Shown here: one piece after another, positions 22,908-36,270 of the stretch
Numbering within the stretch: the first letter of the stretch is position 1
Layout of the letters: every line of letters starts with the position of its first letter
IMG/VR virus record: IMGVR_UViG_3300042542_000217
Location: 1-36,270 of that record
Direction: 5' to 3' (one strand)
Length of the DNA: 36,270 nt
Source: a virus
Made by a program: the position numbers and the translations under genes
The notes under the pieces: model-generated
What the model was told of the DNA's origin: nothing
The model's input: only the letters and a program-made list of their open reading frames with translations
Databases searched by the model: none

Positions 22908-23165
22908 TCAACACTTCCATCTTTTAAGGGCTGCTTTAGCGCGTTCGCCGTCTTTGGCGTTGGCCGCTACGGCACCCATCCTTGCACAAAATGAATCTTT
23001 GCGGCCTTGGTCTGCCTTGGTCTTAGGGTTGGGTGCTGGCGCCTTGAGGTTAGAACCTGTAGCGGCGTTGTACTTAGCGCGGCCCTTCTCAGTCAAGCCC
23101 GCGCCCTTAGACACCGGCAACTTTTCGCCGCGGCCAACTGAAAGAGATACGCCCTTCTTCTTCAT
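22908..23165 (-). CDS. Small basic phage protein (DUF6321-like)
   Basis: An 85-residue protein. The start chosen overlaps the terminase stop as ATGA; a further in-frame ATG four codons upstream lies inside terminase. The core GLTEKGRAKYNAATGSNLKA followed by PAPNPKTKADQGRKDSFCAR and a lysine-rich helix is a widely spread phage pattern (DUF6321, from memory). Residue order suggests a small fold with a single cysteine. Its role near packaging genes is unknown. Confidence 0.8.
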   Translation of the reverse strand: MKKKGVSLSVGRGEKLPVSKGAGLTEKGRAKYNAATGSNLKAPAPNPKTKADQGRKDSFCARMGAVAANAKDGERAKAALKRWKC

Positions 23166-24685
23166 GCGCCCATCCATCCAGTTGACACTGCGCTACCGTA
23201 GCTTCTGGCGGTGCGCTTGGGTTCAGCATACTCACGATGTGCCACTGGAAAGGCAAATGTGACGCAGATAGCGTCAGCAGCGTCGGGCGAGGCAAGACCG
23301 CGAGCTTTCATTTCCTTTTTGCTTTCCAAGAAGATTGTTCCCCGTGAATCAGGCTTCATCATAGGCGAAATCAAGTCCGTCTTCAAGAACCTGTCGCTAG
23401 GGATACTAGCAGATTTCAGCCATTCTCGCATATCTCCCCACATCTGCGCACGCATATTACCGTACATGATCGGGTTTTTAGCCTTATTCCCAAAGTTTAT
23501 GCCCTTGATCTTGTACCGCTGCTCTTTTAAGCGGTCCACAATGCCGGCTCCCAGGCCACCCTCATCAATGACCACCAACGCAGGCTTAAATTCCTCGATT
23601 GCCTCGATTACATACCCCACCACCGTCATGGTGTCGTCGCCCCTGTGGCGAATAATCTTGACAATATCGCGTCCCTGGCGCACAGCGATCACCGTTGCAT
23701 CGGCGCCAAAGCGTGCAGGGTCAACTCCAATAATGATGGGCGCCGACTGATCCTTGTACTTAGCCCTTTTCATCGCGTCATCCACGATATTGGACGAAAT
23801 AAACTGGTCGTCCCCCTCCGAGGGGAACATGCCATACACCTCAACGTGCGCCTGGCTCGAGTCCGGCCCATACTCATCAATGATGTTCTGGTACACCGCT
23901 TTGTCGGTGCCCTCAACCGTCCTGGCGTCCACCACCTTGCTGGTCCAAAAGTCCCGCTTGCTGTTAAAACACTCGTAAAAGTACCCAGTATTTCGCCGGG
24001 GGTTGGAAAAAGCCAACCAAAGGCGGTTTGGCGTGTTCTCAGTAAAAAAGCCCGCGGTCACAGACCAGATCGCATCATCAATACCAGACGCCTCATCAAA
24101 AATCACTAGCACCCCGTCATGGTTGTGGACCCCGGCATAAGAATCTGGGTTTTCTGCTGACCACAACCTGCCCTCAACCGCCCAATACCGGGTGCCCTTG
24201 CGCAAATCCTTCTCCACCAGCTCAGTCAGCCAGCCAGCCGGCGCAACCTTGGTGGCCGACACCTCAAACCAGTGGCTATTAATAGTCATGGCCAACCACT
24301 TGGTAATCTCGGCCCAGGTCACAGCTCGCAATTGGGCCTCGCTGTTGGCCGAAATAATCGTTGTCGATCCAATCCTGGTAGACAACATCCAAATAGTCAG
24401 CCAAGACACCAATGCAGACTTGCCAATACCCCGGCCAGATGAAATGGCGTGGCGCAAAGTCTCAAAGTTAATAAGACCCTTTTGGCGCTTAACGTGCTGG
24501 GCGATCTCGCGCAAGACTTCGCGCTGCCACTTGCGTGGGCCAGCAAAGTGCTGCAGGGGCGTGTTCTCTTTACCCCAGGGGAATGCAAACAAAACAAACG
24601 CTTCTGGGTCATCAGCAATTGCCGGGCTCCACAGAGTCGCCATCAGCTCCTGCTCGTCTTCGGGTTTGTAGATCGTGGTTTGCAT
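23162..24685 (-). CDS. terL: Terminase large subunit (packaging ATPase-nuclease)
   Basis: A 507-residue motor that translocates DNA into the prohead and cuts it. Walker A is SSGRGIGKS at about residues 82-90, and Walker B LVIFDEAS at 193-200, with the catalytic glutamate following. The RNase H-like nuclease shows IGVDPARFG (D322), VVIDEGGLGAG (D374) and a late SPDAADAI acid. The start is the ATG overlapping the upstream stop as TAATG. An open frame continues 48 codons further upstream, but it only overlaps the preceding gene and has cysteine-rich, non-family sequence. Confidence 0.95.
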   Translation of the reverse strand: MQTTIYKPEDEQELMATLWSPAIADDPEAFVLFAFPWGKENTPLQHFAGPRKWQREVLREIAQHVKRQKGLINFETLRHAISSGRGIGKSALVSWLTIWMLSTRIGSTTIISANSEAQLRAVTWAEITKWLAMTINSHWFEVSATKVAPAGWLTELVEKDLRKGTRYWAVEGRLWSAENPDSYAGVHNHDGVLVIFDEASGIDDAIWSVTAGFFTENTPNRLWLAFSNPRRNTGYFYECFNSKRDFWTSKVVDARTVEGTDKAVYQNIIDEYGPDSSQAHVEVYGMFPSEGDDQFISSNIVDDAMKRAKYKDQSAPIIIGVDPARFGADATVIAVRQGRDIVKIIRHRGDDTMTVVGYVIEAIEEFKPALVVIDEGGLGAGIVDRLKEQRYKIKGINFGNKAKNPIMYGNMRAQMWGDMREWLKSASIPSDRFLKTDLISPMMKPDSRGTIFLESKKEMKARGLASPDAADAICVTFAFPVAHREYAEPKRTARSYGSAVSTGWMGA

Positions 24686-26790
24686 TAGGGGTTTGGTGGT
24701 AATTCTTGGCCAAGCATGTTTTGGGGTCTTGGCGCCAACATGTTTTGCACAGCAATCCCGGCGCCTGCAAGACCTGCAGTCCCAAGCATCGCAGCAGGGG
24801 TCGCCCGGCCATAGTAAAGCTCGCGCCAATCAGACGGCGCCATCACCGGATTTTCTGCCTGCGTGTACCCAGCCTTTTTGTGGGCCGTCAAAGCGTCCTG
24901 CATCTCAGTCCATGATTGCCTGGGTAACAACCTGTAATCTGGGTGCGCAAACTCATGCGGCTCCAGGCGTTGCCGGTAAACGTCCCACTTGCGCCATTGC
25001 TCTGGAAACAGCTCAATGCTTGGGTTTGGACCTCTGGACTCATCCACATAATCAACCACTCGTTTATAAAACGGGTTGAAATCTTGCAATTGCTTGGGCT
25101 CGTACGCCAACTTCTCGGGCGTGGCCACACCAGGTATCTCATTCAATTCGCCAGATTTTTTGCGGTATATTTTTGAAAGCGAAGAACCACCAATTACATC
25201 AATAGCAGCATCTTCTACTTTTTGCGTTGGCAATCCCAATATAGCTTCTGTTGTTGGCTCAACCTTTAATTTATTGGCCATACGCAATTTAAACGCATCA
25301 CCAACAATCGGGTCATCCAACATGCGCTCATAAGAGTGCCGGATCATATGCAAATCAACCGCCGACGTGTTGGCCTTCTCCAAATTCAACCAGGGCGTGC
25401 CAAGTGACGCGGTCTTTGGACCCAGGCCAGGCACCTGGTTCATTACCCGCATGGTCACGTCGCGCATGGTCTCCCCTGGCGCCATCTGAAACATTTCAGG
25501 CTTTTGCAAAATCAACTTGGCCAACATTGCTTGGTTGCCCAAATTAGCCGTGCCTAGCACCCCCATACCACCGCGGCCAGCAGCCTGCACACCAGTTTGT
25601 TGTTGAGCTGTTCTTCCCAAATTAGCTTCACCAACCCTGCCGGCCAGCGCTTGCAGCTCACCCATGTCCACCAACCTCATGCGCTGCGCCAAAAACTCAT
25701 TGGGCGTCAACGGCGCATTAGGCGACAACAGCGCAAAATTTAGCCTGTTAAACATGTCCACCTGATCAGGATTTTGCACCTCATGCGTCCTGATCAATTT
25801 CTGCATCAGCTCATCATGCGTCTTCTTAGGCAAAGACGCCGGGTCAATATTGTTGGCCTTCATCCAAAACATGTCCGGCACAGTAAACGTGCCTTCAAGC
25901 CCACCAGGTATCTTGACCTCGCGCTTAGATGTCAAGTCAGAAACACCAAGCGATTTGGGCTCAGTCAACGTCATATTGACCCCATGCTTCTCACCCCAAG
26001 CCTTCCACTCAGCCTCGCTTGCCTTGGGTCCAGGCGTGGTCGCCGGCTCGGCCCTCATGCGTGACCTGGTTTGCACGGCATCATCAATCACCGACCTCGG
26101 CACCACACCAGAAATCTTAAACGCTGGATTTGTCAATAACGACTCAACAATATCTTCTTCACCACCAGCCGCAGCATTTAACGTCTTTCTATTTCTAGAA
26201 ATACCCGTGCCTTCTTGCTTTGCATTAAAAGCCTCAATTGCCTGATCTTTCTCTCGGCCTTTTAATTTTTGAAATTCTTTTGAATTTCTAAGCCTCTCTT
26301 CAGCCTTACTCATAACCGCCGGCTGCGGGTTCAAAAACCCCATACCACCAACGGCCTCAGTGCCCATGCCAACCGGCAAACCCCGGCCAGCCAACGCAGC
26401 CTGCCTAACTAACCTGGCTGCCTGCAGCGCTTCAGCCGGTGTCATAGGCGCAAAAGCACCAAGCTGGGACGCCGCCTGCTGGGCCGGGCCTCGAGGCGCC
26501 AAGGGGAGAGTTTTGAGTAGCTCTTGTGAACCATACGGCACCTGGGGCTGCGGTCCATAGTCCACCTGGCCAAACATCTCCATGGGCATTGGGCTGCGCA
26601 CTATATTGGCTATGTCTGAGGGCATACCAGCGGTTGCTGCAAGCCTGCCTCTGAGTGCCTGCAGTGGCATCTCAAGCGATGCCTGCGGGTCTTGGTACAT
26701 CCTGTTGCGCCTGATCTGAGGATAGTATCCAAACGCAGCTCCAAGCTCGTTTTGGTTCGGGGGCGCCAGGAAGTTAAAGCTAGTGGCCAT
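24685..26790 (-). CDS. Large phage protein with HhH-GPD glycosylase-like motif
   Basis: A 701-residue protein between the terminase subunits. The N-terminal 250 residues are rich in alanine, proline and glutamine and look structural. Residues 451-484 (NQVPGLGPKTASLGTPWLNL, then AVDLHMIRHS) follow the helix-hairpin-helix/GPD signature of base-excision DNA glycosylases, with the lysine (K459) and aspartate (D479) that are catalytic in endonuclease III. A preceding helix pair (AKLILQKPEMFQM, RDVTMRVMNQ) fits that fold. There is no Fe-S cysteine cluster. The C-terminal 200 residues end in a hydrophobic segment (AAMLGTAGLAGAGIAVQNML). It may be a virion or packaging-associated DNA-binding protein. 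The Shine-Dalgarno is weak. Confidence 0.78.
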   Translation of the reverse strand: MATSFNFLAPPNQNELGAAFGYYPQIRRNRMYQDPQASLEMPLQALRGRLAATAGMPSDIANIVRSPMPMEMFGQVDYGPQPQVPYGSQELLKTLPLAPRGPAQQAASQLGAFAPMTPAEALQAARLVRQAALAGRGLPVGMGTEAVGGMGFLNPQPAVMSKAEERLRNSKEFQKLKGREKDQAIEAFNAKQEGTGISRNRKTLNAAAGGEEDIVESLLTNPAFKISGVVPRSVIDDAVQTRSRMRAEPATTPGPKASEAEWKAWGEKHGVNMTLTEPKSLGVSDLTSKREVKIPGGLEGTFTVPDMFWMKANNIDPASLPKKTHDELMQKLIRTHEVQNPDQVDMFNRLNFALLSPNAPLTPNEFLAQRMRLVDMGELQALAGRVGEANLGRTAQQQTGVQAAGRGGMGVLGTANLGNQAMLAKLILQKPEMFQMAPGETMRDVTMRVMNQVPGLGPKTASLGTPWLNLEKANTSAVDLHMIRHSYERMLDDPIVGDAFKLRMANKLKVEPTTEAILGLPTQKVEDAAIDVIGGSSLSKIYRKKSGELNEIPGVATPEKLAYEPKQLQDFNPFYKRVVDYVDESRGPNPSIELFPEQWRKWDVYRQRLEPHEFAHPDYRLLPRQSWTEMQDALTAHKKAGYTQAENPVMAPSDWRELYYGRATPAAMLGTAGLAGAGIAVQNMLAPRPQNMLGQELPPNP

Positions 26791-26908
26791 GATCGTTAGT
26801 GGTTCGTTGGCATTGGGCGATGGTAATTGATTTTTTTAAAAATAAAAATAAAAATGTTCGTGAATGCACCGTTCCTGTGACCTTTCGCCGCCGGCCCTAC
26901 CCGGCCCC

Positions 26909-26928
26909 CCACCGCGGCGGGGCGGTGG
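26909..26928. repeat. GC-rich inverted repeat
   Basis: CCACCGC and GCGGTGG enclose GGCGGG, giving a seven-pair all-strong stem within a longer GC-rich block. No T run follows directly on either strand, so it is not a standard terminator. It lies between the AT-rich tract and the DnaA boxes and may be structural in the origin or packaging region. Confidence 0.6.
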
Positions 26929-27129
26929 CCATGGGCGCCAGGCCGGCACTTATCCACAGGGCCAAACCCTAGTTGTTCATTTCAGATTGTGGATAACTGC
27001 TCCAACCGCGCATCAGTCTGTATAACCTGTGCGCAACTTCCAAATAACTTAACATAATGGATAATGTACGTAGTAGGAATAGACGTAAGCATTCACTCTA
27101 CTTTTTGGGATGCGCGTGCGCGTAGTTGA

Positions 27130-27154
27130 CAAAAATCTATGCGAAAAGCGCATA
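27130..27154 (-). terminator. Candidate terminator after terminase small subunit
   Basis: Read leftward, TATGCG-CTTTT-CGCATA forms a six-pair stem followed by GATTTTTG. It lies eight bases past the terS stop codon. The stem is only half GC, so strength is moderate. It would separate transcription of terS and upstream genes from the 701-residue gene and terL. Confidence 0.6.
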
Positions 27155-27161
27155 ACCCTGC

Positions 27162-27677
27162 CTAATCTGTCCCCAATTTGTCTTTGACTTCAACATCAAC
27201 GACATTGCTGTCGTCCATCAGTACGCGCTGCTTGGCTTCTTTCAACGCATCCATGACGCTGATTCGGTTATCTGTAACGGCAACATCTATGCGATCCCCA
27301 TAAACCTTGGGCTTCAACTTACTAGCCACCCATTTGCGCGCATCGACTTGCATTCGCTTCTGTTGTACCCAAGCGCTCGCTAACGGGCCTTCTAGGCCAT
27401 CTGGCATCTGTTCATCAGCCAGCTCGAGAATCTCTTCAGCCAAGCGATCTGCGCGGCTCTCGAGGGCTTTCTCATACATTCCCCGAAACTCAGGGTTGTT
27501 CTTAATCATCAACATGACGCAATGGTAAGAAGGCATTCCATCATTGGATCTAATCACGCTGCTTAAACTCTTGCCTTCTGCGATCTGCTGACACATTACT
27601 CCCCAGCATGGGTTATCAATCCCAAACACAACAGGCCGACCGCCAGGATGCTTTTGCACTGCCAAGTTTTCAGTCAC
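27162..27677 (-). CDS. terS: Terminase small subunit
   Basis: A 171-residue DNA-recognition subunit of the packaging terminase. The GTG start is preferred: GGGGAG lies seven bases upstream and GTGA overlaps the stop of the preceding short ORF. A TTG five codons further upstream is the alternative. After a basic arm with GGRPVVFG, an HTH-like segment precedes FRGMYEKALESRADRLAEEI and RKWVASKLKPKVYGDRI, the signature of Sf6/P22-like small terminases. It should form a ring that selects the pac site and recruits TerL. Unusually, terL is not adjacent; the 701-residue gene and an origin-like gap lie between them. Confidence 0.9.
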   Translation of the reverse strand: MTENLAVQKHPGGRPVVFGIDNPCWGVMCQQIAEGKSLSSVIRSNDGMPSYHCVMLMIKNNPEFRGMYEKALESRADRLAEEILELADEQMPDGLEGPLASAWVQQKRMQVDARKWVASKLKPKVYGDRIDVAVTDNRISVMDALKEAKQRVLMDDSNVVDVEVKDKLGTD

Positions 27678-27766
27678 TTGTAAACTCCCCAAAAAAGAAG
27701 GTACTCACACCGATCTGGTGCTTTCCCCAAAGAGTGCGGCAACTGCAAAGTAGCGCACACCGTCAT
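27674..27766 (-). CDS. Short coupled ORF between RusA and terS
   Basis: A 30-residue ORF (TVCATLQLPHSLGKAPDRCE, then YLLFWGVYK) whose ATGA overlaps the RusA stop and whose stop overlaps the terS GTG as GTGA. It fills the gap exactly and would carry ribosomes from RusA to terS. Two cysteines and an aromatic tail are present, but there is no family match. It may be a leader whose main function is translational coupling. Confidence 0.5.
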   Translation of the reverse strand: MTVCATLQLPHSLGKAPDRCEYLLFWGVYK

Positions 27767-28137: not shown

Positions 28138-28330
28138 CATCCTGGTCCATCCGGCCCATCCGGCATCCGAACCATCCTGGGTATATATACCCAGGAGGAA
28201 GGATTCGGATGATTGCCGGGGTGGGAACCCGGATGGTTTCGGATGACTTCGGATGATTCGGATGATGATTCGGATGCATCCTGATTCATCCGATTCGGAT
28301 GGTTTCGGATACTTTCGGATGGTTTGGATG
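28138..28330. repeat. Inverted iteron-like repeat array around a palindrome
   Basis: Left arm: five CATCC copies at 28138, 28148, 28157, 28164 and 28173. Right arm: eight exact TTCGGAT copies at 28204, 28238, 28248, 28257, 28269, 28294, 28304 and 28314, plus near copies CCCGGAT at 28228 and TTTGGAT at 28323. The arms are in opposite orientation (CATCC pairs with GGATG), and many spacings are 9-12 bases. A 15-base palindrome (28287-28301) overlaps the primase stop codon. Such phased arrays usually bind several copies of one protein, as at iteron origins. Confidence 0.85.
28175..28196. repeat. Perfect 22-base palindrome
   Basis: Each half is TCCTGGGTATA, the two halves meeting at the centre without a spacer. 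The AT-only core (TATATA) sits between GC-rich arms and lies between the two oppositely oriented iteron arms. It could be a duplex-opening or dimer-binding site, or a resolvase target given the adjacent RusA gene. As RNA it would form a hairpin upstream of rusA. Confidence 0.9.
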
Positions 28331-30331
28331 ACTCCGATACCCCCCATCAGCCTCAACTACCATGCCCTTGGCAATCATACTTTTGACTACTTCCCAAAAT
28401 CTATTATTCTTCACGTTGTGCTCCTTGGCCGACTCCCGCCACTCGTCGTAATTAACTGCACTGGTTTGTTGATCGGTCGTTCGTTTGAGCTCGAGCATAA
28501 CCAGGCACTCCATGACCCGCTTTTGGTTTGGTGACAGGTACGTCTTCTTTTGGACCTGGCTAACCAGGCCGCTGATGTCAACGCTAGTCAGATACGCGCC
28601 CTTGACCGCCAAGTTGTGCTTGTCCAAGATCGGCAGGTCAATTTGGGTGATTTGAAAATTCTTGGCCGCGGGCATTTCAGCGTCCTTCATCTTCTTGGAC
28701 TCAAACTGGATGGTCTTAGAGCCTGAGTCCAACGCCACCTTGTACTCGGCATCCAGGGCACCGCGCAGGGCCGTTGATCCCCGGCTGCGCTCCTTGTCCA
28801 TGGCGCCTGAGTGGTGGACGACTAGCACGCAGCACTTCCATGGTTGGCGCAAATATGTGTCTAAATGCTGGATAAAGGCATTCATGTCCTGGGTTGAATT
28901 CTCGTCGCCCCCCATGTTCCTGGCCACGGTGTCGATGATGATCATGCTGGGTAAGCACCCGGCATCTGCACTGAGCTGCTTGACCGACTCAGCCACAATG
29001 GCCGCTTCGGTGCTGTCGTACAACTGTGCCGCCCGATGGCTTTTGTATAACGGCACGCCGGCCAGGCTGATGCCGTTGCCCAACTCCCACGCCTTAAATC
29101 GCCTGGCCAACCCGTTGTGTCCCTCACCAGCAATGTAAAACACCGCGCCCTGCTGCACCTGGTGCCCATGCCACGGCACGCCAGTGGCCACACAGCAGGC
29201 GATGTCGATGGACACAAAACTCTTGCCACCGCCTGGATCACCAAACACCTGGGCCAAGCTGTCGCCCTCAATGTAATCGTCTACGATCCACTTGATCTGG
29301 GTTAGCTGCAGGCTGTCTGCTCTCGAGAACTCAAACGGCAACTTGTCCTTAACTGGTCCTGCCACGCGCTCGATCTGGTCTTTTACTGCTTCCAAACCCT
29401 GCAGGCAGTGCAGGTCATTAAAGTCTGTTGGTTTGGATGGCAAGTCAGACTCCGCAAAGTTTGGATAAACGATCTCGCCAAATACAAGCGACGCTGCAGC
29501 TCGACCCTTAGTTACCCCAGGGTTGCCCTCTGTGAACTGGTCATTGTCAGCACCAATCACGATCCTGGCCCCAGGAAACATCTCTTTGGCACTTTTGGCC
29601 ACCTTGGCCAGGTTGCCACAATCAAACGCCACCAGCACCGTGTACCCCGTTGCTTCGTGTATCGACGCGCAAGTGGCAAACCCCTCGCCAACAAAGATCA
29701 CCTTCCGGTTGCCACGCAACTCATAAAACCCACCCTCAATCTTGCCACCCTTTAAAAACCGTTTGTTCCCGTCCGCGTCAATGGTCTGGTAGCTCAGTAT
29801 CTCCCCGGCCTGGCTGATCACCGGCACCACCAGGCGCCCAGCCCGGTCAATCTTGATCCCATAAGGCCCAATGCGCTTTCTGACCAGGTATGGATGGTCA
29901 GCACTGGCATCTGTGTACGTCCCAACCTCCTCTTCTGCCTTCTCTGCAGCAACGGCCTGCGAGGCACTCTTCTCAACTTCACGCTTGGCCTTGAACTCTG
30001 CCACCCACTTATCGTGCTCGAGTCGCTCGCTAAACGTCATTGACCTGCCAGTTTCTGCCACCCACTTGGACTCAAATGTTGGCTCTTTCCAGCAGCCACA
30101 CACACCCACAGGAATCTTGCCCCCAGTGTGCAAGATGTACCAAGCATCCACCGCACCCTTCTTGCTTGATATATGGGGCACCCGGTGTATCTCACCATCA
30201 GCAATCAACTCCTTGATCACCAGGCCGGACACCTCACAGTGCCGGCGAAAGCCCTCAACAGGGTTAACCAAATCTTGCGAGTCTGTGGCCACCGCAAAGC
30301 CATTGGGAAAAATGCTCGATAAACTGCTCAT
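28286..30331 (-). CDS. TOPRIM primase-helicase
   Basis: A 681-residue bifunctional replication protein. The N-terminal part (about residues 20-90) has paired histidines and cysteines and may be a template-binding region. The TOPRIM primase core contains VGEGFATCASIHEATG (E215) and IGADNDQ (D261, D263). A RepA/DnaB-like RecA ATPase follows, with Walker A GDPGGGKS at 363-370, Walker B MIIIDT around 463-467 and the sensor VLVVHHSG at about 501-508. It should prime and unwind the phage DNA for the host polymerase. The start overlaps the repressor stop as ATGA; an in-frame extension of 46 codons lies inside the repressor gene. Its last codons are made of the iteron repeats. Confidence 0.9.
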   Translation of the reverse strand: MSSLSSIFPNGFAVATDSQDLVNPVEGFRRHCEVSGLVIKELIADGEIHRVPHISSKKGAVDAWYILHTGGKIPVGVCGCWKEPTFESKWVAETGRSMTFSERLEHDKWVAEFKAKREVEKSASQAVAAEKAEEEVGTYTDASADHPYLVRKRIGPYGIKIDRAGRLVVPVISQAGEILSYQTIDADGNKRFLKGGKIEGGFYELRGNRKVIFVGEGFATCASIHEATGYTVLVAFDCGNLAKVAKSAKEMFPGARIVIGADNDQFTEGNPGVTKGRAAASLVFGEIVYPNFAESDLPSKPTDFNDLHCLQGLEAVKDQIERVAGPVKDKLPFEFSRADSLQLTQIKWIVDDYIEGDSLAQVFGDPGGGKSFVSIDIACCVATGVPWHGHQVQQGAVFYIAGEGHNGLARRFKAWELGNGISLAGVPLYKSHRAAQLYDSTEAAIVAESVKQLSADAGCLPSMIIIDTVARNMGGDENSTQDMNAFIQHLDTYLRQPWKCCVLVVHHSGAMDKERSRGSTALRGALDAEYKVALDSGSKTIQFESKKMKDAEMPAAKNFQITQIDLPILDKHNLAVKGAYLTSVDISGLVSQVQKKTYLSPNQKRVMECLVMLELKRTTDQQTSAVNYDEWRESAKEHNVKNNRFWEVVKSMIAKGMVVEADGGYRSHPNHPKVSETIRIG

Positions 30332-31241: not shown

Positions 31242-31423
31242 ACGCATTCCCCAACCCCCATTTGACCGATCAGCTTGGCATGTCGTTAACAGACTACATG
31301 GCTGCTAAAGCTATGCAAGCCTTTTTGTCAGATCCCGAATGGCGGCAAGAAATGGATTTAAATGAAACTGCTTTTGCTGCATACAGAATGGCAGACGCAA
31401 TGCTGAAAGCGAGGGAAGCATGA
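31238..31423 (+). CDS. Small helical protein, paralogue A
   Basis: A 61-residue protein starting at the ATG that overlaps the preceding stop; the open frame extends four codons upstream. Residues 16-61 (SLTDYMAAKAMQAFLSDPEW, then AAYRMADAMLKAREA) align with the 53-residue protein encoded just before the SF2 helicase (LRDYLAAAALTGLLS, SAYAIADDMIKAREN). The pattern is frequent in phage early regions. Predicted two or three helices; function unknown. Confidence 0.78.
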   Translation: MNAFPNPHLTDQLGMSLTDYMAAKAMQAFLSDPEWRQEMDLNETAFAAYRMADAMLKAREA

Positions 31424-31653
31424 CCGAACTCCAAGATTTTTGCCAAGAGCCGCGCACCATGGAAGAACTGGTTAACGCCAACTTTACCCAGCATCAGGTC
31501 TACAACGCCGTCAGGCGCCGTAAACTGTGCAACACCAAGGCAACAGACGATTGGGGCCGCAAGCTCCGCGGCAAGGGTCTGTACCTGTCCACCGTCACCC
31601 CCATCCCTTATAACGCCGCCGCACTGGTGGCAGCTTGGAGCACACAACCATGA
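31420..31653 (+). CDS. Small protein with possible winged-helix fold
   Basis: A 77-residue basic protein, coupled by ATGA to both neighbours. The pattern PRTMEELVNANFTQHQVYNA followed by VRRRKLCNTKATDDWGRKLR and KGLYL reads as helix-turn-helix then a wing-like strand pair, the layout of a winged helix. That would make it a DNA-binding regulator. The assignment is from pattern only. Confidence 0.72.
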   Translation: MTELQDFCQEPRTMEELVNANFTQHQVYNAVRRRKLCNTKATDDWGRKLRGKGLYLSTVTPIPYNAAALVAAWSTQP

Positions 31654-31910
31654 GCATCTCACCGCCGTGCCCCGAGGGGTTGCTTGAGGTCAACCTTGAC
31701 TGTGAAGGTGTCGAACTGACCTGTTTTTTTGATTACATCCCTGCAGAGTTTGGGTCAACCGACTCCATGGGCTTGCTCTATGAGCCTGACCGAGTTGCAG
31801 AATGTGTGCTTGTTAACGCTTACCTTGGTGACGTTGACATTGGCCATCTGCTTTTGCAGTACCTGGTGGACGACCTTGAAGCCGCCGCCCTTAAATACAC
31901 AAAGGAGTAA
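31650..31910 (+). CDS. Small acidic protein
   Basis: An 86-residue protein. The start overlapping the previous stop is preferred to an in-frame ATG five codons upstream. The acidic first part (EGLLEVNLDCEGVELTCFFD) appears to be beta strands, and the last part (LLLQYLVDDLEAAALKYTKE) is a helix. No family is recognised. Acidic early proteins can be DNA mimics or inhibitors, but nothing here shows it. Confidence 0.75.
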   Translation: MSISPPCPEGLLEVNLDCEGVELTCFFDYIPAEFGSTDSMGLLYEPDRVAECVLVNAYLGDVDIGHLLLQYLVDDLEAAALKYTKE

Positions 31911-35236: not shown

Positions 35237-36270
35237 CTATCAATCCAGATCGGTAGAAGACTTGTTTGCCTGGTGGACCAAGCACCAGGCAAGCGACGAC
35301 ATACCGCTGTTGGTGCTGCCGACCGCCGCGGGCAAGTCGGTGATCTGTGCCGAGATCGTGCGCCAGATGTGGGAGCAATGGCCAGACTACCGGCCCCGCA
35401 CGGTGGTCCTGGTGCCCAGCAAGGAGCTCGCAGAGCAAAACGCCGCCAAGCTGCAGGCACTGCTGCCGGGCGACATTCACGTTGGCTTTGTCAGCGCAAG
35501 CCTGGGCAAGAAGCAGCACCATGCCGACGTGATTGTGGCCACCATTGGCAGCATTCATAAGTCAGCGCACCTGCTTGGCGACATCAAAGCCGTGATCATT
35601 GATGAGGCCCACCTGGTGGACACCAAGGCCCAGGGCATGTACCGCACATTTCTGGCCAAGCTGGGTGAGATTTGCAAATTCAGGACCGTGGGCATGACCG
35701 CCACGCCGTTTAGGGGTAACCAGGTCTGGTTGACCGACGGGGATGATCCGCTATTCACCGGCACGGCCAGCAGGGTCACCATGCAGGAGCTGCTGCAGCA
35801 AAAGTTTATTGCGCCCCTGGTCCCGCCGACCGAGCGCATGGCCACCCGCATTGATGCCAGCAAAGTTGGTATTGCCAACGGCGACTATAAAATTGGCGAG
35901 CTGTCTGACGTGGTGGAAGGCTATTTAAGGGAAGTGGCCAGGGAAGCCGTTAAATTGGCCGCCAAGCGCCGCAAATGGATTGCTTTCACCCCAAGTGTTA
36001 GGAACGCTGAAAGCCTTACAAACTACCTAAACCAACTGGACATTAAAGCCGATCTAGTGTGTGGGGAAACCCCCAAACAGGAGCGCCAGGATTTAATCCA
36101 AGACTTCCGCGACGGGCACATTGATTGCCTGGTCACCGTGCTTGCCTTGTCAGTTGGCTTTGATGTGCCTGACGTGGACTGCATTATCTGGTGCAGGCCG
36201 ACCAAGTCGCCTGTGCTATATGTCCAGGGCATGGGCCGCGGCACCCGCATTGCTGACGGCAAGGCCGACT
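35223..36270 (+). CDS. SF2 DEAD/DEAH-type helicase, N-terminal part
   Basis: The gene begins here and is cut by the window end; it continues at the other end of the window. The first RecA-like domain holds LRDYQ (Q-motif-like) at 3-7, Walker A PTAAGKS at 33-39, DEAH at 127-130 and TATP at 159-162. The second domain starts near residue 225 (YLREVAREAVKLAAKRRKWI, with IAFTPSVRNAESL). The chosen ATG fits both the Q-motif and the overlap with the previous gene. Known relatives act in replication restart, recombination or branch migration; the exact role here is not known. Confidence 0.92.
   Translation, partial: MILRDYQSRSVEDLFAWWTKHQASDDIPLLVLPTAAGKSVICAEIVRQMWEQWPDYRPRTVVLVPSKELAEQNAAKLQALLPGDIHVGFVSASLGKKQHHADVIVATIGSIHKSAHLLGDIKAVIIDEAHLVDTKAQGMYRTFLAKLGEICKFRTVGMTATPFRGNQVWLTDGDDPLFTGTASRVTMQELLQQKFIAPLVPPTERMATRIDASKVGIANGDYKIGELSDVVEGYLREVAREAVKLAAKRRKWIAFTPSVRNAESLTNYLNQLDIKADLVCGETPKQERQDLIQDFRDGHIDCLVTVLALSVGFDVPDVDCIIWCRPTKSPVLYVQGMGRGTRIADGKAD
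36144..36270. repeat. Terminal direct repeat, right copy
   Basis: The last 127 bases are identical to the first 127. Joining them keeps the helicase frame intact. The most likely cause is circular contig overlap, and the unique genome would then be 36,143 bases. See the left copy for alternatives. Confidence 0.9.

Follow-up and report, generated by a model that had tools for sequence, protein, structure and literature searches.

The 371-bp gap (26791-27161) that lies between the small terminase gene terS and the next open reading frame of this virus raises the question of which process its DnaA boxes serve. A preliminary description had read the gap as a replication origin that depends on the DnaA of the host. 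The window, i.e. the whole stretch of 36,270 bp that was analysed, corresponds to record IMGVR_UViG_3300042542_000217, which is classed as linear. Since its ends (1-127 and 36144-36270) are an identical 127-bp overlap, the window is probably a circular map of 36,143 bp and, in spite of its classification, probably a complete, circularly permuted genome. In this map, terS (27162-27692, minus strand) encodes an Sf6-type small terminase (PF20901, E 3e-30; phrog_1482) and terL (23162-24829, minus strand) the large terminase (phrog_2, E 7e-43). The placement of the gap between the terminase genes holds on the terS side, whereas a 701-aa ORF that matches no known family (24685-26790, minus strand; neither Pfam nor PHROG), which is the first gene past the element discussed below, separates the gap from terL. 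Two landmarks reported earlier were recovered, namely a conserved A/T-rich tract ahead of the start of the 701-aa ORF (26828-26855) and a GC-rich inverted repeat (about 26900-26925). An intrinsic-terminator-like hairpin (27137-27155, minus strand) lies directly downstream of terS, with similar sequence in many relatives. A sigma-70-type promoter had no match in the gap, and Rfam returned sub-threshold matches only.

The two perfect inverted boxes TTATCCACA are present 29 bp apart, at 26988-26996 (minus strand) and 26950-26958 (plus strand), and they are the sole exact copies in the 36,270 bp. The check for a window-wide enrichment turned out negative, with eight matches at no more than one mismatch compared to a chance mean of 7.15. 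Because one-mismatch boxes are at chance level, the signal consists of local clustering and conservation. Searching viral contigs with TerS identified 440 relatives, and the best 80 of these (72-99% identity, 516 kb) were taken. In this best 80 of 440, the 516 kb contain 99 exact TTATCCACA boxes, every one of them at most 520 bp downstream of terS. At least one exact box is found in 64 of the 75 loci that have at least 300 bp after terS, and the remaining loci carry variants, for example TTATGCACA. Box variation in the relatives is confined to the known degeneracy of the TTATNCACA-type 9-mer, and the changes seen are ones that DnaA tolerates. As had been claimed, the DnaA boxes are genuine and conserved.

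Side-by-side comparison of the gaps also brought to light a 28-bp imperfect palindrome that, together with three degenerate boxes described below, was missing from the preliminary description. In the window, this XerC/XerD-type site (xrs; 27047-27074, minus strand) is composed of the XerC arm ACTACGTACAT (27064-27074), the centre TATCCA (27058-27063) and the XerD arm TTATGTTAAGT (27047-27057), all on the minus strand; the common form in relatives is ACTTTATACAA TGTCCA TTATGTTAAGT. It is the best match of the window to a position weight matrix (PWM) of dif arms, scoring 18.4 bits compared to 8.8 bits for the second-best match and a maximum of 11.2 bits over 30 shuffles. This matrix was built from 57 dif sites in genomes of the order with the Achromobacter hit (Burkholderiales), which we infer to be the order of the host from the similarity of the arms. 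In this order, dif reads NNTTCGYATAA TGTATA TTATGTTAAAT, with a centre that is mostly TGTATA. Two type II relatives (L055, L056), in which the XerC arm is divergent, score about zero. Over 34 nonredundant type I modules, the information amounts to 1.92 bits in the XerD arm, 1.46 in the XerC arm and 1.34 in the centre. Among the relatives, the XerD arm is nearly invariant and the XerC arm more divergent, and the variable 6-bp centre (TATCCA, TGACCA, TGTCCA, TCATCA, CGTCCA and others) is not the TGTATA that compatibility with dif calls for. The consensus matched 122 plasmid records by blastn, 119 of them from Acinetobacter, and we take the Acinetobacter matches to be known pdif sites. In plasmid Xer sites, too, the XerD arm is better conserved and the centre variable (PMC11724359). 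With two inward palindromic arms of 11 bp, a centre within the 6-8 bp of an xrs and a XerD arm conserved above the XerC arm, the 28-bp element has the form of a host XerC/XerD site, for which binding and recombination are predicted.

The boxes follow this site at set distances, and we regard the gap as one composite cis element (module) of about 125 bp that starts with the Xer site and continues with phased DnaA boxes on its XerD side. In the lineage of the window (lineage A), the registers, measured from where the XerD arm ends and tallied over 77 modules, are +10 and +51 on the strand of the site and +66, +76 and +90 (or +89) on the opposite strand, in both orientations of the module. The window represents the second type minus one base: its perfect boxes lie at +50 (+51 in most relatives) and +88 (+89 in type II relatives). 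Its degenerate boxes lie at +10 (TTGCGCACA, 27028-27036, minus strand; TTATCCACA or TTATGCACA in most relatives), at +21 (box-like TTATACAGA, 27017-27025, minus strand; TTATACATG in type II relatives) and, inverted, at +65 (TTGTTCATT, 26973-26981, plus strand; register +65/66, with TTGTCCACA or TTATCCACA in type I relatives). The spacer sequences diverge while the spacing is kept (0.90 bits in spacers versus 1.68 bits in arms and boxes).

The coupling of site and boxes was found from both directions. A pattern of the boxes alone retrieved 30 stretches from the viral collection, and a XerD arm precedes the boxes by exactly 10 bp in all 30. A pattern of the Xer site alone retrieved 69 stretches, 67 of them usable; 64 of the 67 have boxes, which with few exceptions sit in the canonical registers, and 59 of the 67 have one at +10, and all of these counts depend on close relatives. 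The three sites without boxes (L319, L324, L345) belong to a fourth phage group, in which the Xer core is located at the end of a 220-aa ORF that, as a guess from its sequence, resembles a replication protein. A control set of 120 loci (1.08 Mb) had been selected by inverted box pairs alone and, among the matches listed, consists mostly of other viruses. An Xer site occurs in eight of these loci, some of which add to the membership of lineages A, B and C (see below), and in all eight, among the matches listed, the boxes are on or a few bases off the registers. The constant spacing from XerD to the first box is suggestive of a single complex of DnaA and XerCD; part of the fixed spacing could stem from a recent transfer of the module.

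At least three lineages of podophages, whose terminases differ, have the module beside the terminase genes and in either orientation. Lineage B (L282, L304 and others) has a different terminase and a helicase-primase 34% identical to that of the window, and in lineage C (L306 and others) TerL is about 29% identical. The module follows terS in lineages A and C and precedes the presumed terS, a small ORF without family match, in lineage B. Two chimeric loci (L118, L155) combine the replication half of lineage A, with helicase-primase and RusA, with the terminase half of lineage B, and the module is close to the junction. On the TerS tree of lineage A, with rough support, inverted modules are scattered among forward ones, and thus exchange or flipping of the module has happened at least twice. 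The AT tract beside it does not flip with the module. The XerC side has no sequence common to the lineages (in lineage C it is terS coding sequence), and the common elements are the DnaA boxes on the XerD side. All loci are metagenome-derived, and searches by TerS, TerL or module, in collections that may lack records very close to the window, yielded no named phage or plasmid that bears the module.

Two further observations concern the surroundings of the module. Repeats of the form GTAAGCGCTCACTAAC and the palindrome CAGGGTTAACCCTG, possible operators, flank inverted modules (for example those of L013, L017 and L025) and also occur in this position in L057-L062. Besides, contig 3300011335_000175 (L346/L351; 39,996 bp) contains the terS-module region twice with small differences, which is a probable redundancy, with a strain mixture or a dimer junction as alternatives.

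Based on these comparisons, our best reading, to which we assign a probability of about 0.5, is that the module is a host-XerCD site that would circularise or monomerise the phage genome, and that phased DnaA acts there as an accessory factor. The core would be bound by host XerC and XerD, and recombination would take place between two copies of the site that the phage itself carries. Matching centres are required for Xer recombination, and since the centres vary among relatives and differ from the TGTATA of dif, a phage site would most naturally pair with a second copy of itself. One outcome would be the circularisation of injected, terminally redundant DNA, for which it fits that the site adjoins terS, where pac is expected; the other would be the resolution of multimers into monomers. 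DnaA on its phased boxes would act as an architectural or activating factor, i.e. in the role of ArgR/ArcA and PepA at cer and psi or of FtsK at dif, and replication would start mainly at a separate iteron locus. The more specific proposal that DnaA, located 10 bp from XerD in a fixed register, activates or licenses XerCD recombination of a tailed-phage genome and thereby provides a host-dependent switch is tentative, and we consider it possible rather than probable.

Several points bear on this best reading. Known Xer accessory sequences sit on the XerC side (PMC11724359), and the boxes of the module run counter to this placement. In the openly accessible literature, we found no report of DnaA being linked to Xer recombination or Xer sites in tailed phages. 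The phage has recombination genes of its own (Sak4- and Cas4-like), so circularisation need not depend on Xer. Moreover, monomerisation late in infection would hinder the headful packaging of concatemers, which speaks against the best reading, as do the three boxless sites among the 67. With respect to lifestyle, neither an integrase nor a partition gene, which would mark a temperate phage or a phage-plasmid, was detected in the records searched: integrase PF00589 was found in 0 of 33 records (20 of lineage A and 13 mostly of lineages B and C), and ParB PF02195 did not exceed the cut-off in 20 records, with one weak sub-threshold match.

The main rival is the DnaA-dependent phage origin of the preliminary description, next to which the Xer site would resolve multimers as on pSC101 and similar plasmids, and we judge it rather unlikely. 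DnaA would melt the duplex close to its boxes, after which the helicase-primase of the phage and the replisome of the host would take over. A conserved array of DnaA boxes with known variants is what an origin, too, would show. The stated lack of a phage polymerase was confirmed in so far as 13 records gave no PolA-type match, and in the two annotated phages whose TerL is closest (76% and 68%), a polymerase gene is present and the Xer site is missing, which also fits an origin in the gap. In one TerL relative, L363 (MW202483.1), positions 31423-31719 are annotated as "dnaa protein helix-turn-helix", and this phage has its own polymerase. A fixed spacing to the Xer core, however, is not expected of an origin, and in some loci the module is inverted relative to the AT tract. 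Lineages B and C have no AT-rich unwinding element at a fixed place beside the module, as judged by AT content, by which weak elements would escape. Phase-locking to the Xer site, flipping without the AT tract and the lack of a fixed AT-rich element in other lineages, as far as AT content shows, make a DnaA origin in the gap less likely.

The iteron locus, 1.2 kb away, enters this question on both sides, as an origin-like neighbour and as a separate array that adjoins the helicase-primase gene. It consists of CATCCGAA units in steps of about 10 bp at the end of this gene (28197-28331) and, in almost every locus of lineage A, precedes terS by about 700 bp. Its position is conserved and its unit is not (CATCCGAA, TGTACCGA, GTACCGAA, CGTCCGGA, TGCACCGA), and a TATA-centred inverted repeat adjoins the array. 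In sequence terms, the array looks like an origin with a co-evolving binding protein and is a better candidate than the gap for the phage's own origin. From the earlier picture of two origin-like loci about 1.2 kb apart, the iteron locus is therefore real and keeps its place in relatives, but an origin in the gap is the less likely part.

It is improbable that the module is an attP-like site for XerCD integration at the dif of the host, as in the filamentous IMEX phages. The dif-like arms, the lack of an integrase in the records searched and the IMEX precedent (PMC5357621) agree with such a function, but the central 6 bp are not the TGTATA of dif and differ even among close relatives. Nor did such a prophage turn up: the module pattern is absent from 399 genomes of the inferred host order (Burkholderiales), and strict TerS peptides gave one distant match (37%) in 84,980 genomes (one genome per species). 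We give an equally small chance to a titration of DnaA, in which phage copies would soak up the protein and stop host initiation, or to late transcription gated by DnaA. The several boxes per genome and their place before the late genes would suit these functions, but the module is orientation-independent, the gap lacks a sigma-70-type promoter match, and a decoy needs no base-pair registers to an Xer site. Least probable of all is a pac site at which the small terminase would recognise the gap repeats and start packaging. The place beside the terminase genes in three lineages would suit it, but the module is shared by phages with very different terminases (TerL about 29% identical), matches known sites of host proteins and can be inverted.

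Among known systems, cer of ColE1 and psi of pSC101 are comparable in their 11 + 6-8 + 11 core with dif-like arms, a better conserved XerD arm and a variable centre (PMC11724359), and in the host-protein sites that adjoin the core at set positions. In contrast to cer and psi, where ArgR/ArcA-PepA act on the XerC side, the module has DnaA boxes, on the XerD side, as its putative accessory sites and belongs to tailed phages about 36-38 kb in size. The dif sites of the Burkholderiales, sampled around Achromobacter, have a nearly identical XerD arm (TTATGTTAAGT or TTATGTAAAGT) and a related XerC arm, whereas the phage site differs in its XerC arm ACTTNNTACAA and its centre, is non-chromosomal and is flanked by DnaA boxes. 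The plasmid matches of the consensus, nearly all from Acinetobacter, point to a likeness to pdif sites, which serve to move gene modules and for which we know of no phased DnaA boxes. Phage P1 uses loxP and Cre close to pac for circularisation and dimer resolution, and it shares with the present phages a recombination site near the packaging locus; unlike P1, which encodes its recombinase, only the site was found here. The IMEX phages (CTXphi, VGJphi, TLCphi) likewise have a dif-like site and use host XerCD, but they are filamentous and integrate at dif, and the phage centre seen here argues against integration.

In the literature that we found, phage Xer sites are described mainly for filamentous and tailless prophages that integrate at dif. 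Here, several tailed-phage lineages, integrase-free in the records searched, share an Xer site phased with DnaA boxes beside their terminase genes. As a sequence signature, the module can help to find phages of this kind, and a simple plasmid assay would suffice to test the control of XerCD by DnaA. If DnaA indeed governs XerCD here, this would add a further control of Xer recombination, and a new accessory system, to FtsK and ArgR/ArcA-PepA. The module hints at phages that handle genome multimers with host proteins only, and the circularisation or monomerisation of their genomes would then be coupled to the replication state of the host.
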